A stretch of DNA of 64,000 nucleotides from Treponema sp. (GTDB lineage: Bacteria; Spirochaetota; Spirochaetia; Treponematales; Treponemataceae), in contig JAEESN010000001.1 of assembly GCA_016286365.1 (NCBI GenBank), forward strand, positions 124,001 through 188,000. Reading direction: 5' to 3'. The position numbers and the translations under genes were made by a program. Of this stretch, positions 4,023 through 49,481 are shown piece by piece. Every line of letters begins with the position of its first letter. Positions within the stretch are counted from its first letter, which is position 1. The notes under the pieces were generated by a model. It made no database searches. It was not told the DNA's origin and was given only the letters and a program-made list of their open reading frames with translations.

Positions 4023-5138
4023 CTATTTACTCCTGTTTGTAAAATAAGATATATCACCATAAATTGCTAATATAAGACATAATATTATAAAGGCAATTCC
4101 TATAAATTGTATATAGTACTGAACCTTAGGTTTGATTTTTCTTCGTATTATACATTCTATAACAGCAATCAGAATTAAGCCACCGTCTAAAACCGGAATA
4201 GGAAGAAGATTCATCACAGCAAGTGAAACACTGATTATTGCCATTAAATCAAAAAGCGAAATAAAACCTGTTTTAGCGTCGTGGGAAAATCCCGAAACAA
4301 CGCTGGTACCAAGCATATCTGTAACTCGTCCAAGCCCAGAAACAGTATTTTTAAGTTCCACTCCTTTAAATAAAATCCCTATGCTTTTAAAAGTTACTTT
4401 GATTGTTTTAATCGTATCTATAAAGCCGTGACCAAAGGCCGGGAAAAAACTGTAACGCGGAGAATCCCTTTTAATAAGATTTTCTGCATCTGCCTTGATT
4501 CCCAAAACTCCGATTCCCTGACTTTTATCGAGCCCGGTATGAACATTAAAACTGATTTCCTGTCCGTCTCGGTCTACAATAATAACAATATCTTCGTCCG
4601 GTCTGATTACAATATTCTGAGTGATGTCGTCCCAGTATTCGGTTTTATTTCCGTTTATAGAGATGATTTTATCTCCGGTCAATAATCCTGCGTCTTTAGC
4701 AATTGTGATTTTTGATTCTTCGGGAGTAGGGATGATTATTCTGTTCGAAGCCGTTACATAAGAATAGCCTATCATGTTGATTATAGCGTATCCGATTACG
4801 GCGAAAATAAAATTAAAGAAAGGTCCTGCAAATGCAATCATTGCTCTTTTAGCAGGATGTACACCGTAAAAAGAATCCTTATCTGCAACTATTTCTGTAA
4901 GTCCTGATTCAACTGACTTCTGAAAATCCTTTTCTCCCTTCATACCGCAGTAACCGCCCAATGGTAAAAGAGAAAGGCGGAAATCAGTTCCTTTAATTGT
5001 TTTATGAAGAAGAACCGGTCCCATGCCGATTGAAAATGATTCAACCTTTACTCCGAATAATTTTGCAGCAACAAAATGTCCGAATTCATGAAAAAGAATT
5101 AAAAAGATTAAACAAAGGATTCCATATACCCAGCTCAT
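4023..5138 (-). CDS. rseP: Site-2 zinc metalloprotease, RseP/M50 family
   Basis: The protein has 371 residues. The zinc site HEFGH lies at residues 17-21 in the first membrane helix. A PDZ-like domain occupies the middle (about 130-210), and the third zinc ligand sits in the later N-L-L-P-I-P-V-L-D-G-G motif. These are the hallmarks of intramembrane site-2 proteases that cut anti-sigma factors or signal-peptide remnants. A polar C-terminal membrane helix follows. It overlaps the end of dxr by 4 bases, so it is translationally coupled. The dxr-rseP order is conserved in many bacteria. Confidence 0.95.
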   Translation of the reverse strand: MSWVYGILCLIFLILFHEFGHFVAAKLFGVKVESFSIGMGPVLLHKTIKGTDFRLSLLPLGGYCGMKGEKDFQKSVESGLTEIVADKDSFYGVHPAKRAMIAFAGPFFNFIFAVIGYAIINMIGYSYVTASNRIIIPTPEESKITIAKDAGLLTGDKIISINGNKTEYWDDITQNIVIRPDEDIVIIVDRDGQEISFNVHTGLDKSQGIGVLGIKADAENLIKRDSPRYSFFPAFGHGFIDTIKTIKVTFKSIGILFKGVELKNTVSGLGRVTDMLGTSVVSGFSHDAKTGFISLFDLMAIISVSLAVMNLLPIPVLDGGLILIAVIECIIRRKIKPKVQYYIQFIGIAFIILCLILAIYGDISYFTNRSK

Positions 5139-46070: not shown

Positions 46071-47015
46071 TTAGAATTTAATCTGCTTTATTACGTCTTT
46101 AAGACAATCTGCACTGTGACGCAGCGATTTAACTTCATCATCAGTAAGAGGAGTTGCGATGTGACCTTTAATTCCGTTTATACCAACGATAGTAGGAATA
46201 GAAAGACAAACATCTTTGATATCGTATTCACCGTCGAGAAGTGATGAAATTGTAAGGACAGAATCAGTGCTGTAGTTTAATGCTTCTACTAAAGTTGCAG
46301 TTGTGATTCCAATACCATAGTTTGTACATTTTTTAGCAGCGATGATGATTCCGCCTGATTTACGGATATAATCTTCTACGTCGTTTTTGTCGAAAGTAGG
46401 AAGCTTTTCTTTTCCTGTAAATGAGTTTGCATAGTAATCAACAGGTATAGAACCGATGTTTGCAATAGACCAAGGAACGAATGATGAATCACCGTGTTCA
46501 CCAAAAACATAACCATGAACGTTTGTCTGGCAAACCTTATATGTTTCTGCAATGCGGGCACGGAAGCGGGCAGTATCGAGCATAGTTCCTGTACCAAAGA
46601 TGTGATTTGCAGGAATGCCTGAAGTTTTGATGAACTGATAGGTAAGAATATCAACAGGATTTGCTACGATAACATAAAGAGCGTTTGGACAAGCCTTTGC
46701 AATCTGAGGAATTACAGATTTAGCAATGTCAACGTTAGTCTGAGTTAAATCAAGGCGTGACTGACCAGGCTTTCTTCCAACACCGGAAGTAAAGATTACT
46801 ACATCCGAACCTTTTGCATCTTCATAGTCACCATCGTGAACGTAAACAGGACCAATAAACGGAGTGCCCTGACGGATATCCATAGCTTCTCCCATAGCCT
46901 TGTCTTTGATGATGTCGATAATAACGATTTCTGATGCAAGCTGCTTAACAGTTAATGCAAAAGCAACAGTTGAACCAACCTGACCGGCACCAATGATAGT
47001 AATCTTTCTAGACAT
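46071..47015 (-). CDS. Malate/L-lactate dehydrogenase family enzyme, likely malate dehydrogenase
   Basis: The 314-residue protein has an NAD Rossmann motif, G-A-G-Q-V-G-S-T-V-A, and NAD-selective D34. The catalytic pair is D147 (with R150) and H174 in F-G-E-H-G-D-S. The specificity loop reads G-R-K-P-G-Q-S-R. The residue equivalent to LDH position 102 is arginine (R81), the malate-type residue, where lactate dehydrogenases have glutamine. A later residue (T231 in C-T-N-Y-G) is lactate-type. The fumC neighbour favours malate. AGGAGAC precedes the ATG. Confidence 0.85.
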   Translation of the reverse strand: MSRKITIIGAGQVGSTVAFALTVKQLASEIVIIDIIKDKAMGEAMDIRQGTPFIGPVYVHDGDYEDAKGSDVVIFTSGVGRKPGQSRLDLTQTNVDIAKSVIPQIAKACPNALYVIVANPVDILTYQFIKTSGIPANHIFGTGTMLDTARFRARIAETYKVCQTNVHGYVFGEHGDSSFVPWSIANIGSIPVDYYANSFTGKEKLPTFDKNDVEDYIRKSGGIIIAAKKCTNYGIGITTATLVEALNYSTDSVLTISSLLDGEYDIKDVCLSIPTIVGINGIKGHIATPLTDDEVKSLRHSADCLKDVIKQIKF

Positions 47016-47154
47016 ATTATAGTCTCCTTAAAAATATATATTTTGAAGTTGTGATTATTTAGAAAATAACTATATTATTTTAATGGTTTTAATATATTTT
47101 GTTAATAGGAAAACTCCCAGATTAAAAAAAATTTGAAAAAAATAAAAAGAAGCA

Positions 47155-47183
47155 TTGACACAAGCGCTCAAAATCAATATATT
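47155..47183 (+). promoter_or_regulatory. Promoter of tRNA-Gly
   Basis: A perfect TTGACA (47155-47160), 17-base spacer and TATATT (47178-47183) place the start a few bases before the tRNA 5' end at 47196. Confidence 0.8.
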
Positions 47184-47195
47184 ATAAACATATTT

Positions 47196-47268
47196 GCGGA
47201 TGTCATATAACGGCTTATTATCTCAGCCTTCCAAGCTGATGACGAGGGTTCGACTCCCTTCATCCGCT
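47196..47268 (+). tRNA. tRNA-Gly (anticodon TCC)
   Basis: The gene is 73 bases long with a 7-bp acceptor stem GCGGATG/CATCCGC. The anticodon stem TCAGC/GCTGA has loop CTTCCAA, which gives anticodon TCC. The T arm is GAGGG-TTCGACT-CCCTT. The CCA end is not encoded. It marks the border between core genes and the accessory region; tRNA 3' ends are common integration sites. Confidence 0.95.
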
Positions 47269-47270
47269 TA

Positions 47271-47299
47271 AGCTCTCTGAATAAGAGAGCTTTTTTTAT
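47271..47299 (+). terminator. Terminator after tRNA-Gly
   Basis: AGCTCTCT-GAATAA-GAGAGCT followed by seven T, directly after the tRNA. Confidence 0.92.
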
Positions 47300-47334
47300 T
47301 TTAAAGCGATATTATTGTAATAAGAATTAGGTCA

Positions 47335-47348
47335 GGGAGTCGAACCCA
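47335..47348 (-). repeat. Inverted copy of the tRNA-Gly T-arm
   Basis: Fourteen bases, AGGGAGTCGAACCC, are the exact reverse complement of the T-arm core of the tRNA-Gly at 47246-47259. They lie 67 bases past its end. The flanking bases do not complete a tRNA. The stretch from 47300 to 47604 has no gene; it holds this fragment, the folded element at 47442 and AT-rich sequence before the toxin-antitoxin pair. Confidence 0.6.
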
Positions 47349-47441
47349 GCGCATATGGGAAATCCGTTAAAAAAAATTGAACGACAGTGCAATTTTTTAG
47401 AATTTTCCTCAAAATTAGCTCGGAACGAGACTTGCGAGCGA

Positions 47442-47507
47442 CGACGGGTTCTACGCGTGGCATAAATGCCACAGCGCAAAACGCTAAAAACCCTGTCGGC
47501 TTTTTTT
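47442..47507 (+). other. Three-way-junction RNA-like element with terminal T run
   Basis: A closing stem CGACGGGTT (47442-47450) pairs with AACCCTGTCG (47489-47498, one bulge). It encloses two hairpins: GTGGCAT-AA-ATGCCAC (47457-47472) and AGCG-CAAAA-CGCT (47473-47485). Seven T follow. A small CTCG-GAA-CGAG hairpin precedes it at 47419-47429. It could be a small RNA with its own terminator or one copy of a folded mobile repeat. Function unknown. Confidence 0.45.
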
Positions 47508-47604
47508 AACGCAAATTGTCTTCATTCGCTCGATTGGTTTAGAAATTGATTTTTAATAAAAAAGAGTTTAAAATATATATTAGATTTTAGATGGAGGTGA
47601 CAGA

Positions 47605-47808
47605 ATGTTTGCAACGACTGGAAGAGTTCAGGGTAATACGGTTTTAGTTGATGATTTTTCTCTTGAAAAATATAATGGCAGAAAAGTTATCATTACTGTT
47701 CTTGAAGACGAAAAAAACTATAAAACTGTTTCTGATGAAAAACTTTTGGCACTTTCAGATTCTCTTATAGATCAGAATAAGGAAGCTTATCAGGAACTTG
47801 CTAAATGA
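47605..47808 (+). CDS. Antitoxin of a Doc/Fic-type toxin-antitoxin pair
   Basis: This 67-residue protein has a short beta-rich N-terminal part (Q-G-N-T-V-L-V-D-D) and a helical C-terminus ending Q-E-L-A-K. A Phd-like antitoxin has this layout: DNA-binding N-terminus and toxin-blocking C-terminal helix. It has an excellent GGAGGTGA site. Its stop overlaps the start of the toxin gene by ATGA, the usual arrangement. Sequence family not recognised with certainty; the call rests on position. Confidence 0.7.
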   Translation: MFATTGRVQGNTVLVDDFSLEKYNGRKVIITVLEDEKNYKTVSDEKLLALSDSLIDQNKEAYQELAK

Positions 47809-48182
47809 TTTTTTTTGAATATGAGCAGGTAATAAAGCTTCATTCTTCATTAATTTCAAAAACAGGTGGAATTGATGGTGTAAGAGATGAGAATCTTTTG
47901 GATTCTGCATTAAAAGCCCCTTTCCAAACTTTTGGTGGAAAAGATCTTTATCCGGATATTTTAGATAAGGCCTCCCAGCTTTGTTATTCACTGATTGAAA
48001 ATCATCCATTTGTAGATGGAAACAAACGAATTGGTGTTCATTTGACTTTGATTTTCTTAAAATTAAATAATATTGAATTAAAATATTCTCAGCAGGAATT
48101 GATTGATTTTGGTCTTAACGTTGCAGCAGGAAAGCTCAATAAAGACAATATCAAAAACTGGCTGAAAAATCACGAGATTTAG
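47805..48182 (+). CDS. doc: Doc-type Fic-domain toxin
   Basis: This 125-residue protein has the Fic motif E-N-H-P-F-V-D-G-N-K-R at residues 65-75, with catalytic H67. The position that is glycine in AMP-transferring Fic proteins is lysine (G-N-K-R), as in Doc, which phosphorylates EF-Tu and stops translation. An upstream E-N-L-L-D-S-A-L motif and Y at the end of the sheet also fit Doc. It is co-translated with the antitoxin and is the first gene pair of the island after tRNA-Gly. Confidence 0.9.
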   Translation: MIFFEYEQVIKLHSSLISKTGGIDGVRDENLLDSALKAPFQTFGGKDLYPDILDKASQLCYSLIENHPFVDGNKRIGVHLTLIFLKLNNIELKYSQQELIDFGLNVAAGKLNKDNIKNWLKNHEI

Positions 48183-48183
48183 T

Positions 48184-48486
48184 ATGATTAAACACATTAT
48201 TTTATGGACATTAAAGGACATGCCCGACTCGGAAAAGGAATCGGTGAAAAAAGGGATTAAGGACGGGCTTGAAGGGCTCAAGGGGAAGATACCGGGGCTT
48301 ATTGATATAAAGGTGAATGCTCAAGGGCGGCTCGGGTCTTCTACGGCAGATTTGATGCTGGATTCTACGTTTGAATCGGAAGAGGCGCTCAAAGGGTATT
48401 CAAAACATCCTGAGCATGTGGCAGTTGCAGACAGTAAGGTTAGAACTTTTACAGCTAGCAGGGCTTGTCTGGATTTTGAGGTTTAA
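48184..48486 (+). CDS. Dabb-family stress-responsive barrel protein
   Basis: This 100-residue protein has the Dabb (alpha/beta barrel) start M-I-K-H-I-I-L-W-T-L and the later Y-S-K-H-P-E-H motif. Such small ferredoxin-like-fold proteins form dimers; most have no known role. It begins one base after the toxin stop. Its codon use is more GC-rich than the toxin pair, which suggests a different origin. Confidence 0.85.
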   Translation: MIKHIILWTLKDMPDSEKESVKKGIKDGLEGLKGKIPGLIDIKVNAQGRLGSSTADLMLDSTFESEEALKGYSKHPEHVAVADSKVRTFTASRACLDFEV

Positions 48487-48489
48487 GAA

Positions 48490-48693
48490 TTATTTTTTTT
48501 CCAGCAAAATCTCTTCAACAAGATATGCATCGCTTAAACAGTGGAAGTCGCTGATGCCTTTACTCATGAGCATGTAGGTGTCCGAATTATAAAAAAGTTC
48601 CATGGCTTTTTCTTCATCAATATTTGCTTTTTTTGCAAGGAGAGAAATAATTCGAGCATATTTCATCTGTAAAAGAGTTGGATCAGCTGTCAT
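48490..48693 (-). CDS. Small helical DUF3791-like protein (antitoxin candidate)
   Basis: This 67-residue helical protein contains M-K-Y-A-R-I-I-S-L-L-A-K-K and a later G-I-S-D-F-H-C-L-S-D-A-Y-L-V-E-E-I block. It is the last gene of a three-gene minus-strand unit and overlaps the DUF3990-like gene by 4 bases. I recognise the layout from gut bacteria, where such small proteins flank DUF3990. DUF3791 assignment is tentative. Confidence 0.6.
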   Translation of the reverse strand: MTADPTLLQMKYARIISLLAKKANIDEEKAMELFYNSDTYMLMSKGISDFHCLSDAYLVEEILLEKK

Positions 48694-49184
48694 GATGCAG
48701 CTCCTTTTACTTCATAACTTGATTCAAACTTAAGTACAGAGTTCAGAACTTTCTGATTTATAAAACAGATTTGATTATTTGGTTTTTCATATTTTAAGCG
48801 TTCAAGTGTTGTTGATTTATCTATTAGACCTGATTGATAAAGTTCAACAGTATTAAAAACTTTATCGTTTGCAATTCCACCTTCGATGACGTCATAATTC
48901 ATATAATCTTTAGAACCATTACGACAGGAGAGTACAAAATCAAGCCATTCTTCATTATATTCAGGGAATTTTTTATAACGATATTTTTCTGCAAGATTTT
49001 TATCATCAAAATTATAAATATTTATGATTCCTTTTTTGCCAAGCGAAACAAAACGTTCCACCCATTTTTCAGCCTGATTTTTTAAATCTGTTGTATAAAA
49101 TCCTTTTCCAAAATCAAGATTATCGCGACCGAACGAAACAAGAGGCTTTTCTACAATTATTGTTGACCCATGATATATTTTCAT
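48690..49184 (-). CDS. DUF3990-like protein, possible ADP-ribosyltransferase-fold toxin
   Basis: This 164-residue protein opens with K-I-Y-H-G-S-T and continues D-F-G-K-G-F-Y-T-T-D-L-K-N-Q-A. These H and Y positions are reminiscent of the H-Y-E group of ADP-ribosyltransferases. A later V-I-E-G-G-I-A-N-D-K-V block is typical of DUF3990. It overlaps the genes on both sides by 4 bases (48690-48693 and 49181-49184), so the three are co-translated. A toxin role is inferred from fold and arrangement. Confidence 0.65.
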   Translation of the reverse strand: MKIYHGSTIIVEKPLVSFGRDNLDFGKGFYTTDLKNQAEKWVERFVSLGKKGIINIYNFDDKNLAEKYRYKKFPEYNEEWLDFVLSCRNGSKDYMNYDVIEGGIANDKVFNTVELYQSGLIDKSTTLERLKYEKPNNQICFINQKVLNSVLKFESSYEVKGAAS

Positions 49185-49396
49185 GCCACAAGATTCCTTT
49201 CTTTAAGAACTGAGACAATTTCATCAACTATATATTGTTTACTCTGAGTATGGAGGGCTTCGTAGGAAGGGATGATGTAGGAATGGAGGAGGCCGGAATT
49301 ATTGAGAATTTGAAAAATTTCGGTGCCAGTTTTACCAAGCTTTTTTGCCACATTTTCGATGCAGAAAACTGAATATTCAATCTGTTTGTCGCTCAT
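49181..49396 (-). CDS. DUF3791-like small protein (antitoxin candidate)
   Basis: The start at 49396 (MSDKQIEYSVFCIENVAKK) has AGGAGGC just upstream, so the longer in-frame extension is rejected. The protein has 71 residues with the pattern F-C-I-E-N...L-L-H-S-Y-I-I-P-S-Y-E-A-L-H-T-Q-S of DUF3791. It is the first gene of the triad and is a good candidate for the antitoxin of the DUF3990-like protein. Confidence 0.7.
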   Translation of the reverse strand: MSDKQIEYSVFCIENVAKKLGKTGTEIFQILNNSGLLHSYIIPSYEALHTQSKQYIVDEIVSVLKERNLVA

Positions 49397-49481
49397 AAAA
49401 TGCCTCCTTTTAAAATCTTTTATATAAATAATATACAATATTTTTAAATTATTTGCGAATTGTTTTATTCAGATACACTAC

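Follow-up and report, generated by a model that had tools for sequence, protein, structure and literature searches.

Positions 47419-47507 of the window, as the whole stretch of 64,000 nucleotides of Treponema sp. DNA analysed here will be called, can be folded into a three-way junction followed by a T tail. According to an earlier note, this patch could be a small RNA, a mobile fold resembling a tRNA or a REP, or the structure of an attachment site; the question is which of these, if any, describes it. The patch was said to be free of genes, and indeed no ORF of at least 80 aa overlaps it. On one side it is flanked by tRNA-Gly(TCC) (47196-47268, + strand; ARAGORN; Rfam, 56.9 bits), which is located upstream and has its own terminator-like hairpin and T run (47270-47300, +), separate from the element described below, and on the other side by a small ORF and a Fic/Doc gene.

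The folded patch and two oppositely oriented repeats

All parts of the proposed structure are present, as was found in the sequence and by folding. The closing stem pairs CGACGGGTT (47442-47450) with AACCCTGTCG (47489-47498) and encloses the hairpin GTGGCATAAATGCCAC (47457-47472) and the hairpin AGCG..CGCT (47473-47485); the triloop hairpin CTCG-GAA-CGAG occupies 47419-47429, and the seven T lie at 47501-47507. The view that such order is unlikely by chance was not confirmed: the MFE of 47400-47520 had a z of -1.54, and 15 of 200 shuffles were equal or better. For 47419-47511, z was -2.03 on the + strand (6/200 shuffles) and -2.67 on the - strand (1/200). Taken together, these values (z -1.5 to -2.7) place the stability of the three-way junction only slightly above what chance would give.

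What does stand above chance is a match to a family of dispersed repeats. A covariance model of the family found hp1 at 47352-47414 on the + strand (62.2 bits, E 2.6e-12 in the window) and again at 47470-47524 on the - strand (42.8 bits, E 1.4e-7 in the window and 5.9e-6 genome-wide); the window scores of these two copies are not independent, because both sat in the training alignment of the model (A1). Copy 1 extends over 47348-47439 (+). Its hp1 includes P1 (around 47358-47365 and 47400-47407), the internal loop GTTAA (47366-47370) opposite A 47399, and P2 with a GACA loop, and is followed by the second hairpin P3, GCTCG...CGAGC (47418-47439), which includes the triloop hairpin mentioned above. 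A putative 5' strand of P0, AGC, is located at 47348-47350; its partner GCT (47418-47420) is also used by P3, and this P0 is weak. Copy 2, which is degenerate, lies antisense to copy 1 at about 47457-47524 (-); the upper five P2 pairs of its hp1 are unpaired in the alignment, and its second hairpin, GTGGCATTTATGCCAC (47457-47472), is the 7-bp hairpin of the patch. Folded alone (47347-47450), copy 1 is no better than its shuffles (z -1.03; 29 of 200 as good), and its MFE structure contains P2 and P3 and lacks the P1 of the family. Three other copies of the family gave z values from -3.4 to -5.8.

The base pairs described earlier therefore stand and the bounds do not, as the design of the element starts upstream of 47419 and the interval 47419-47507 cuts across two copies. 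Because the window has matches at 47352-47414 (+) and 47470-47524 (-), the closing stem (47442-47498, + strand of the MFE fold) joins two oppositely oriented neighbours: it is the tail of copy 1 cross-paired with the inner hairpin of copy 2 and not a conserved unit. With this cross-copy pairing and the weak z, the three-way junction was rejected as a unit.

Other identities were also tried. ARAGORN returned tRNA-Gly alone, so the folded patch is not taken as a tRNA or tmRNA. No Rfam family reached its gathering threshold on the element in the window, and 15 copy loci searched at E<=1 showed weak sub-threshold overlaps only; a known RNA family was rejected on this basis. A fragment resembling a tRNA T-arm and 3' end (GGGTTCGACTCCCTGACC on the - strand, 47330-47347) abuts the 5' end of copy 1; GAACCC (47342-47347) precedes the copy, and the inverted GGGTTC (47446-47451) lies on its far side. 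Arrangements of this kind were seen beside other copies.

Fold, covariation and distribution of the family

The family was traced from the short partial matches that 47290-47560 gave when it was searched against the own genome with BLAST. Reading these matches revealed a shared design, in which an outer and an inner arm, both covarying, are separated by GTTAA opposite a single A, and the loop is often GAAA or GACA. The element is about 85-100 bp long. On the + strand it folds as P0, an A-rich loop, P1, a GUUAA/A internal loop, P2 and a GNNA loop, followed by the hairpin P3. Essentially the same fold was obtained with RNAalifold from 19 copies, with 14 pairs, nine of which have changes on both sides. 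In these 19 copies, the covariation over 18 manually set pairs was 0.452, as against 0.112 in shuffled and at most 0.074 in slid alignments. For P0, P1 and P2 in 52 copies from four relatives, it was 0.538, as against 0.180 shuffled and at most 0.116 slid, and 90.1% of the cells were paired (73.6% in P0 alone). One of the five measures applied to the 52-copy alignment, the number of further pair types, did not rise above the shuffles (43 vs 42.0).

The 52 copies lie outside the training of the model, but were found with the model R1 and filtered with a detector. As this detector accepts only sequences with CGTTA[AT], with an A in front of the closing G and with paired arms, the fixed internal loop and the P1 and P2 percentages partly reflect the selection itself. 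The loops, the flanks and P0 are free of this selection, and P0 is part of neither the model nor the detector. In 112 of 217 copies the 5' strand of P0 departs from the consensus, and in 45 of these 112 it pairs fully with its own 3' strand, where 1000 shuffles averaged 14.3 and never exceeded 26. A tetraloop was found in 182 of 222 distinct hp1; it is GNNA in 159 of the 182 and the complement TNNC in none, and therefore the strand read here is the strand that folds. The strand bias of the loop, taken alone, fits a fold of RNA or of single-stranded DNA equally. The hairpin region behind hp1 has a mean MFE of -9.1, compared with -5.2 for shuffled sequences and -3.9 further downstream. In total, the detector yielded 247 distinct elements (336 with duplicates), and 12 in reversed sequence.

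In the own genome, R1 gave at least 41 matches at E<=1 and at least 39 at E<=0.01. The search for further copies with compensatory changes that the earlier note had proposed was thus positive, with the covariation belonging to a differently bounded fold. At E<=1e-5 the element was found in 46 of 98 same-genus genomes, the own one included, with at least 54 copies in one genome, and none was found among the candidates scored in the other 52; all per-genome counts are lower bounds, taken from the 150 candidates (in the genus scan, 55) that were scored out of up to several thousand. Eight relatives from other genera, within a sample of 20 relatives, gave no R1 match at E<=0.01 among the candidates scored. 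A scan of named genomes, which fetched loci with a pattern fixing P1, returned at least 119 stretches, and the 80 with titles all come from assemblies assigned to Treponema, Spirochaetales or Spirochaetaceae; the element-carrying matches listed include T. bryantii and T. porcinum. Among the matches listed, the element was seen only in Treponema and related spirochaete assemblies. Carriage by phages or other viruses was also considered and rejected: one exact pattern had 0 matches in viral contigs, and one filled attC region matched no phage record.

Among the titles and abstract beginnings listed in literature searches, there was no description of such an element. In the main text of the RepRanger paper (PMC12306157) the word Treponema is absent, and its table has three Spirochaetota genomes.

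Stop codons and sites of insertion

Many copies begin where a gene ends. In 103 of the 229 distinct copies with enough upstream sequence, a same-strand stop codon closing a frame of at least 80 codons lies at -4 to +11 of P0, an interval picked after the offsets were known; it directly abuts the element in 68 of these copies and falls inside its start in 35. Between -40 and +25 of P0 a stop was found in 116/229. Controls for the narrower interval gave 5/174 at 150 nt upstream, 0/183 at 300 nt downstream and 13/178 on the opposite strand at the 3' side. The proportion 103/229 describes the collection and not independent events, because orthologous copies and copies fetched with an exact pattern are included, and 126 of the 229 lie away from a stop codon by the same criterion. 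Where the offset is -3 or -2, the stop codon reaches into P0 and contributes its final one or two bases to the 5' strand; the outermost P0 pair is formed in 32 of 52 rows.

The genes examined that have the element at the stop codon include those for glutamate dehydrogenase, PNPase, nucleoside diphosphate kinase, a fused ammonium transporter/P-II, a fused histidine-biosynthesis protein, a GatC-like protein and ScpA. Comparison of the C-termini upstream of 106 stop-adjacent copies gave 12 groups of similar sequences with two to six loci each, at least one of which mixes two related proteins. In several groups P0 and P2 have changed and are still paired, and in others the copies differ little outside the loop. 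These changes in place could result from the replacement of copies instead of compensatory drift, and orthologous copies are not independent. Downstream of the 69 stop-adjacent copies with enough sequence, a same-strand start with a Shine-Dalgarno-like motif follows within 230 nt in 42, and the end of a convergent gene in 18 further copies.

The copies are inserts, present in attC sites, beside tRNA genes and at the ends of genes. In the integron array on contig C31 of the own genome, plain attC sites of 61-63 nt (such as C31:276262 and C31:278024) stand beside element-holding sites of 147-194 nt, and two more filled sites (131 nt) were found on C1, giving five filled attC. The site at C31:268626 has 86 bp more than the empty C31:278024, and its insert is preceded by AACAACTGGTTGTACC and followed by AACAATTGATTGTACC. 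Four of the five filled sites were taken into the attC alignment; the five probably represent one insertion event, since their inserts are near-identical. The region C31:262000-280448 (L103, L104) as a whole is a chromosomal integron with an IntI of 401 bits and attC-like sites of 61-194 nt, some of which are apparently fused or carry inserts. A filled and an empty orthologous stop codon could also be compared: in the relative G023, a gene located upstream of a conserved one ends inside the element, and in G085 these two genes are neighbours and the element is absent. This comparison rests on the direct sequences, because the alignment loses register behind the stop codon.

Direct repeats were looked for at 40 own copies. 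At three of these (C17:8487, C33:15222, C21:18429) the repeats are perfect, measure 24, 23 and 23 bp and end exactly at the 5' end of the element; diverged repeats accompany other own copies (C4:51797, C5:490 and the attC copies). In the relatives, 5 of 65 copies have direct repeats of 17-56 bp (L111, L115, L136, L149, L162); 11 of the 65 reached p<=0.05, and the five long repeats alone were used. One antisense self-match was removed from this set, and the tandem arrays L031, L035 and L052, as well as a 34-bp repeat at L059 that does not abut the element, were excluded as target duplications. Overall, direct repeats vary from 16 to 56 bp and were found for a minority of copies. At some copies an inverted piece of the same target lies on the far side. 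Direct repeats so long and so variable suggest that the element inserts by an unusual route.

Six tRNA loci of the own genome have copies of the element within about 400 bp, ten copies in all. At one of the loci of this genome (L022, contig C12, 3057-3818), an intact tRNA-Pro is followed by apparent broken copies of tRNA-Pro that alternate with four elements, each tandem unit of about 150-230 bp consisting of a tRNA piece and a hairpin with one element. At 4026-4497 of the same locus, near tRNA-Asp, there is a degenerate tandem array with a 36-bp unit within a 211-bp higher unit; the 36-bp units carry ATGCACG and TCGCGCAGAAAA motifs. In two relatives (L149 on G002:C121, and L115 in G004), an ORF beginning with MAKTFD has its 5' end, together with the start codon, duplicated upstream of the element, the duplicate being a short ORF with the same N-terminus and a stop inside the element.

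A probable mobile repeat acting behind stop codons, and the competing explanations

The explanation that we favour, and consider rather probable, is that the patch lies in two copies, one of them degenerate and antisense to the other, of a mobile repeat that occurs in Treponema and is non-autonomous. Within the mRNA, this repeat would fold just after the stop codon and so tune termination or decay. By analogy, the RNA of the element probably modulates the message of the upstream gene. It would be transcribed as the 3' part of this message and would fold immediately behind the terminating ribosome, where the fold may slow termination or recycling, block 3' exonucleases, or both. For E. coli REPs at a distance of at most 15 nt from the stop codon, stalling of terminating ribosomes has been reported (Liang 2015, cited in PMC12306157), and stable REPs are reported to block exonucleases (PMC12306157); the upstream cistron could be tuned in a similar way. 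Copies in harmless or useful places would persist and others would decay, as copy 2 may have done. The copy in the window may be a mere relic, because there is no stop codon at this place, a tRNA fragment lies beside it and its antisense partner is decayed; as it is not at the stop codon of a protein gene and folds like its shuffles, the proposed function may not apply to it.

By its kind the element belongs with the REP/BIME and MITE-like small mobile sequences, and it is new in its anatomy, its position and the lack of a cognate enzyme among those tested. Like the REP/BIME of enterobacteria and pseudomonads, it is a small structured repeat with tens of copies, tandem pairs, compensatory changes and a site just behind stop codons. 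In contrast to them, it is longer, has a two-hairpin fold with a GUUAA/A loop and a GNNA cap, often takes the stop codon into P0, and has direct repeats at some copies. With MITE-like sequences such as RU/ERIC, Correia and RPE (for papers on such sequences, PMC2229807 and PMC10969869) it shares a non-autonomous, dispersed mode of existence within genes and intergenic DNA. Its direct repeats vary in length, in contrast to the short and fixed duplication of MITEs, and no parent insertion sequence was found for it among IS110 and Y1. Across the 98 genomes, IS110 was not associated with the element (OR 0.87). IntI, Y1/RAYT, RVT_1 and IS110 were each tried as mobilisers, and none tracked the element convincingly.

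If this explanation is true, the element would be an independent case of a REP-like control, far from the enterobacteria, at the stop codons of housekeeping genes, and it would become testable whether hairpins behind stop codons are selected for translational control or merely tolerated. The unusual duplications, and the lack of a matching enzyme among those tested, also suggest that small DNA can be moved by a mechanism not yet characterised.

That the element is a true REP, mobilised by a REP-associated tyrosine transposase (RAYT) through the nicking of hairpins in single-stranded DNA, seems unlikely. The copy number is similar, the hairpin has fixed unpaired bases and copies lie near stop codons; besides, the element occurs in 10 of the 12 genomes with a long, RAYT-sized Y1 (frames of at least 246 aa), compared with 36 of the 86 others (OR 6.9, p 0.011, from a split made after seeing the data and not corrected for phylogeny). 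With all Y1_Tnp counted, the odds ratio across the 98 genomes was 1.48 (p 0.47). The REP head motif is GTAG or GT(A/G)G, as given in PMC2817692, but the majority 5' flank over 222 distinct hp1 is GCCTAAAATCG, with no GTAG or GGAG head. No R1 match was found in the four Y1 loci examined (L088, L089, L090 and L096, three from element-carrying genomes and one from an element-free genome), and the element-rich G023 and G085, each 99% complete and with at least 54 copies, have no Y1_Tnp match at E<=1e-6. Long direct repeats are not known as a feature of REPs. The REP-like mobile fold among the original suggestions comes close to the favoured explanation, except that no GTAG head was found and that none of the four Y1 loci examined had a rayt gene flanked by inverted copies of the repeat.

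A spreading bidirectional intrinsic terminator is quite improbable. Several copies, both of those in the window included, do show an A-run, a hairpin and a T-run, but their T run belongs to the paired part of P2. An hp1 that resembles a terminator, for which a GC-rich stem with an unpaired T run directly behind it would be required, was seen in only 2 of 69 stop-adjacent copies; a gene start lies downstream in the 42 of 69 copies mentioned above, and a separate terminator-like site follows the element in 14 of the 69. A terminator scan of 47000-48300 gave the site of tRNA-Gly alone. The same data speak against a stand-alone RNA of about 70 nt with a T tail, as the T run of the patch is the A-run side of the hairpin of the antisense copy.

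We likewise give a low probability to the idea that the element is a structured RNA which is mobile and inserts in connection with translation termination or RNA 3' ends, by means of an enzyme outside the tested transposase, integrase and reverse-transcriptase families. This idea is based on the landings at stop codons, at T-arms and 3' ends of tRNAs and in folded attC, and on the long target duplications of variable length.

It is improbable that the element arose by retroposition of a small RNA, as a bacterial counterpart of SINEs whose variable repeats would result from target-primed reverse transcription. The RNA-like GNNA loop, the strand polarity, the sharp 5' end and the variable repeats of 16-56 bp agree with it, but RVT_1 was found in 13 of the 46 genomes with the element and in 15 of the 52 without it (OR 0.97), and at E<=1e-8 it was not found in G000 (the own genome), G003, G004, G023 and G085.

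A variant of the integron attC, or a product of the integron integrase, has a still smaller probability. The own genome has an IntI above the cut-off (C31:279513-280448), five attC contain the element, and both are folded sites at gene ends; attC sites often follow stop codons. However, the same array has element-free attC of 61-63 nt with CATAAC/GTTATG boxes, and the R''/R' boxes with AAC and GTT triplets of the neighbouring attC are absent from the element, copies of which also lie outside arrays. In T. denticola the attC are 63-68 bp long, and original sites of over 100 bp were proposed, with T. succinifaciens named (PMC3607928). Presence of the integrase does not track the element in the 13 same-genus genomes compared: G003 and G004 have at least 36 and at least 64 copies without an intI over the cut-off, whereas G001 and G005 have intI and no copies among the candidates scored. 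As to the attachment-site structure once suggested, the element lies within some attC and is itself no attC.

Least probable of all is a functional small RNA formed by the three-way junction, for which the MFE fold with seven T behind it speaks, but whose z is weak, whose stem spans two separate repeat copies and which gave only piecewise matches elsewhere in a BLAST search of the own genome.

The genes beside the patch deserve a short description. Directly downstream, at 47605-48179 (+), an ORF of 67 aa with no Pfam match overlaps an ORF of the Fic/Doc family (PF02661, 68.9 bits), and the pair looks like a toxin-antitoxin system of the Phd/Doc type. Further on, at 48693-49438 (-), DUF3990 and DUF3791 genes lie side by side, as genes of these two families do elsewhere too.
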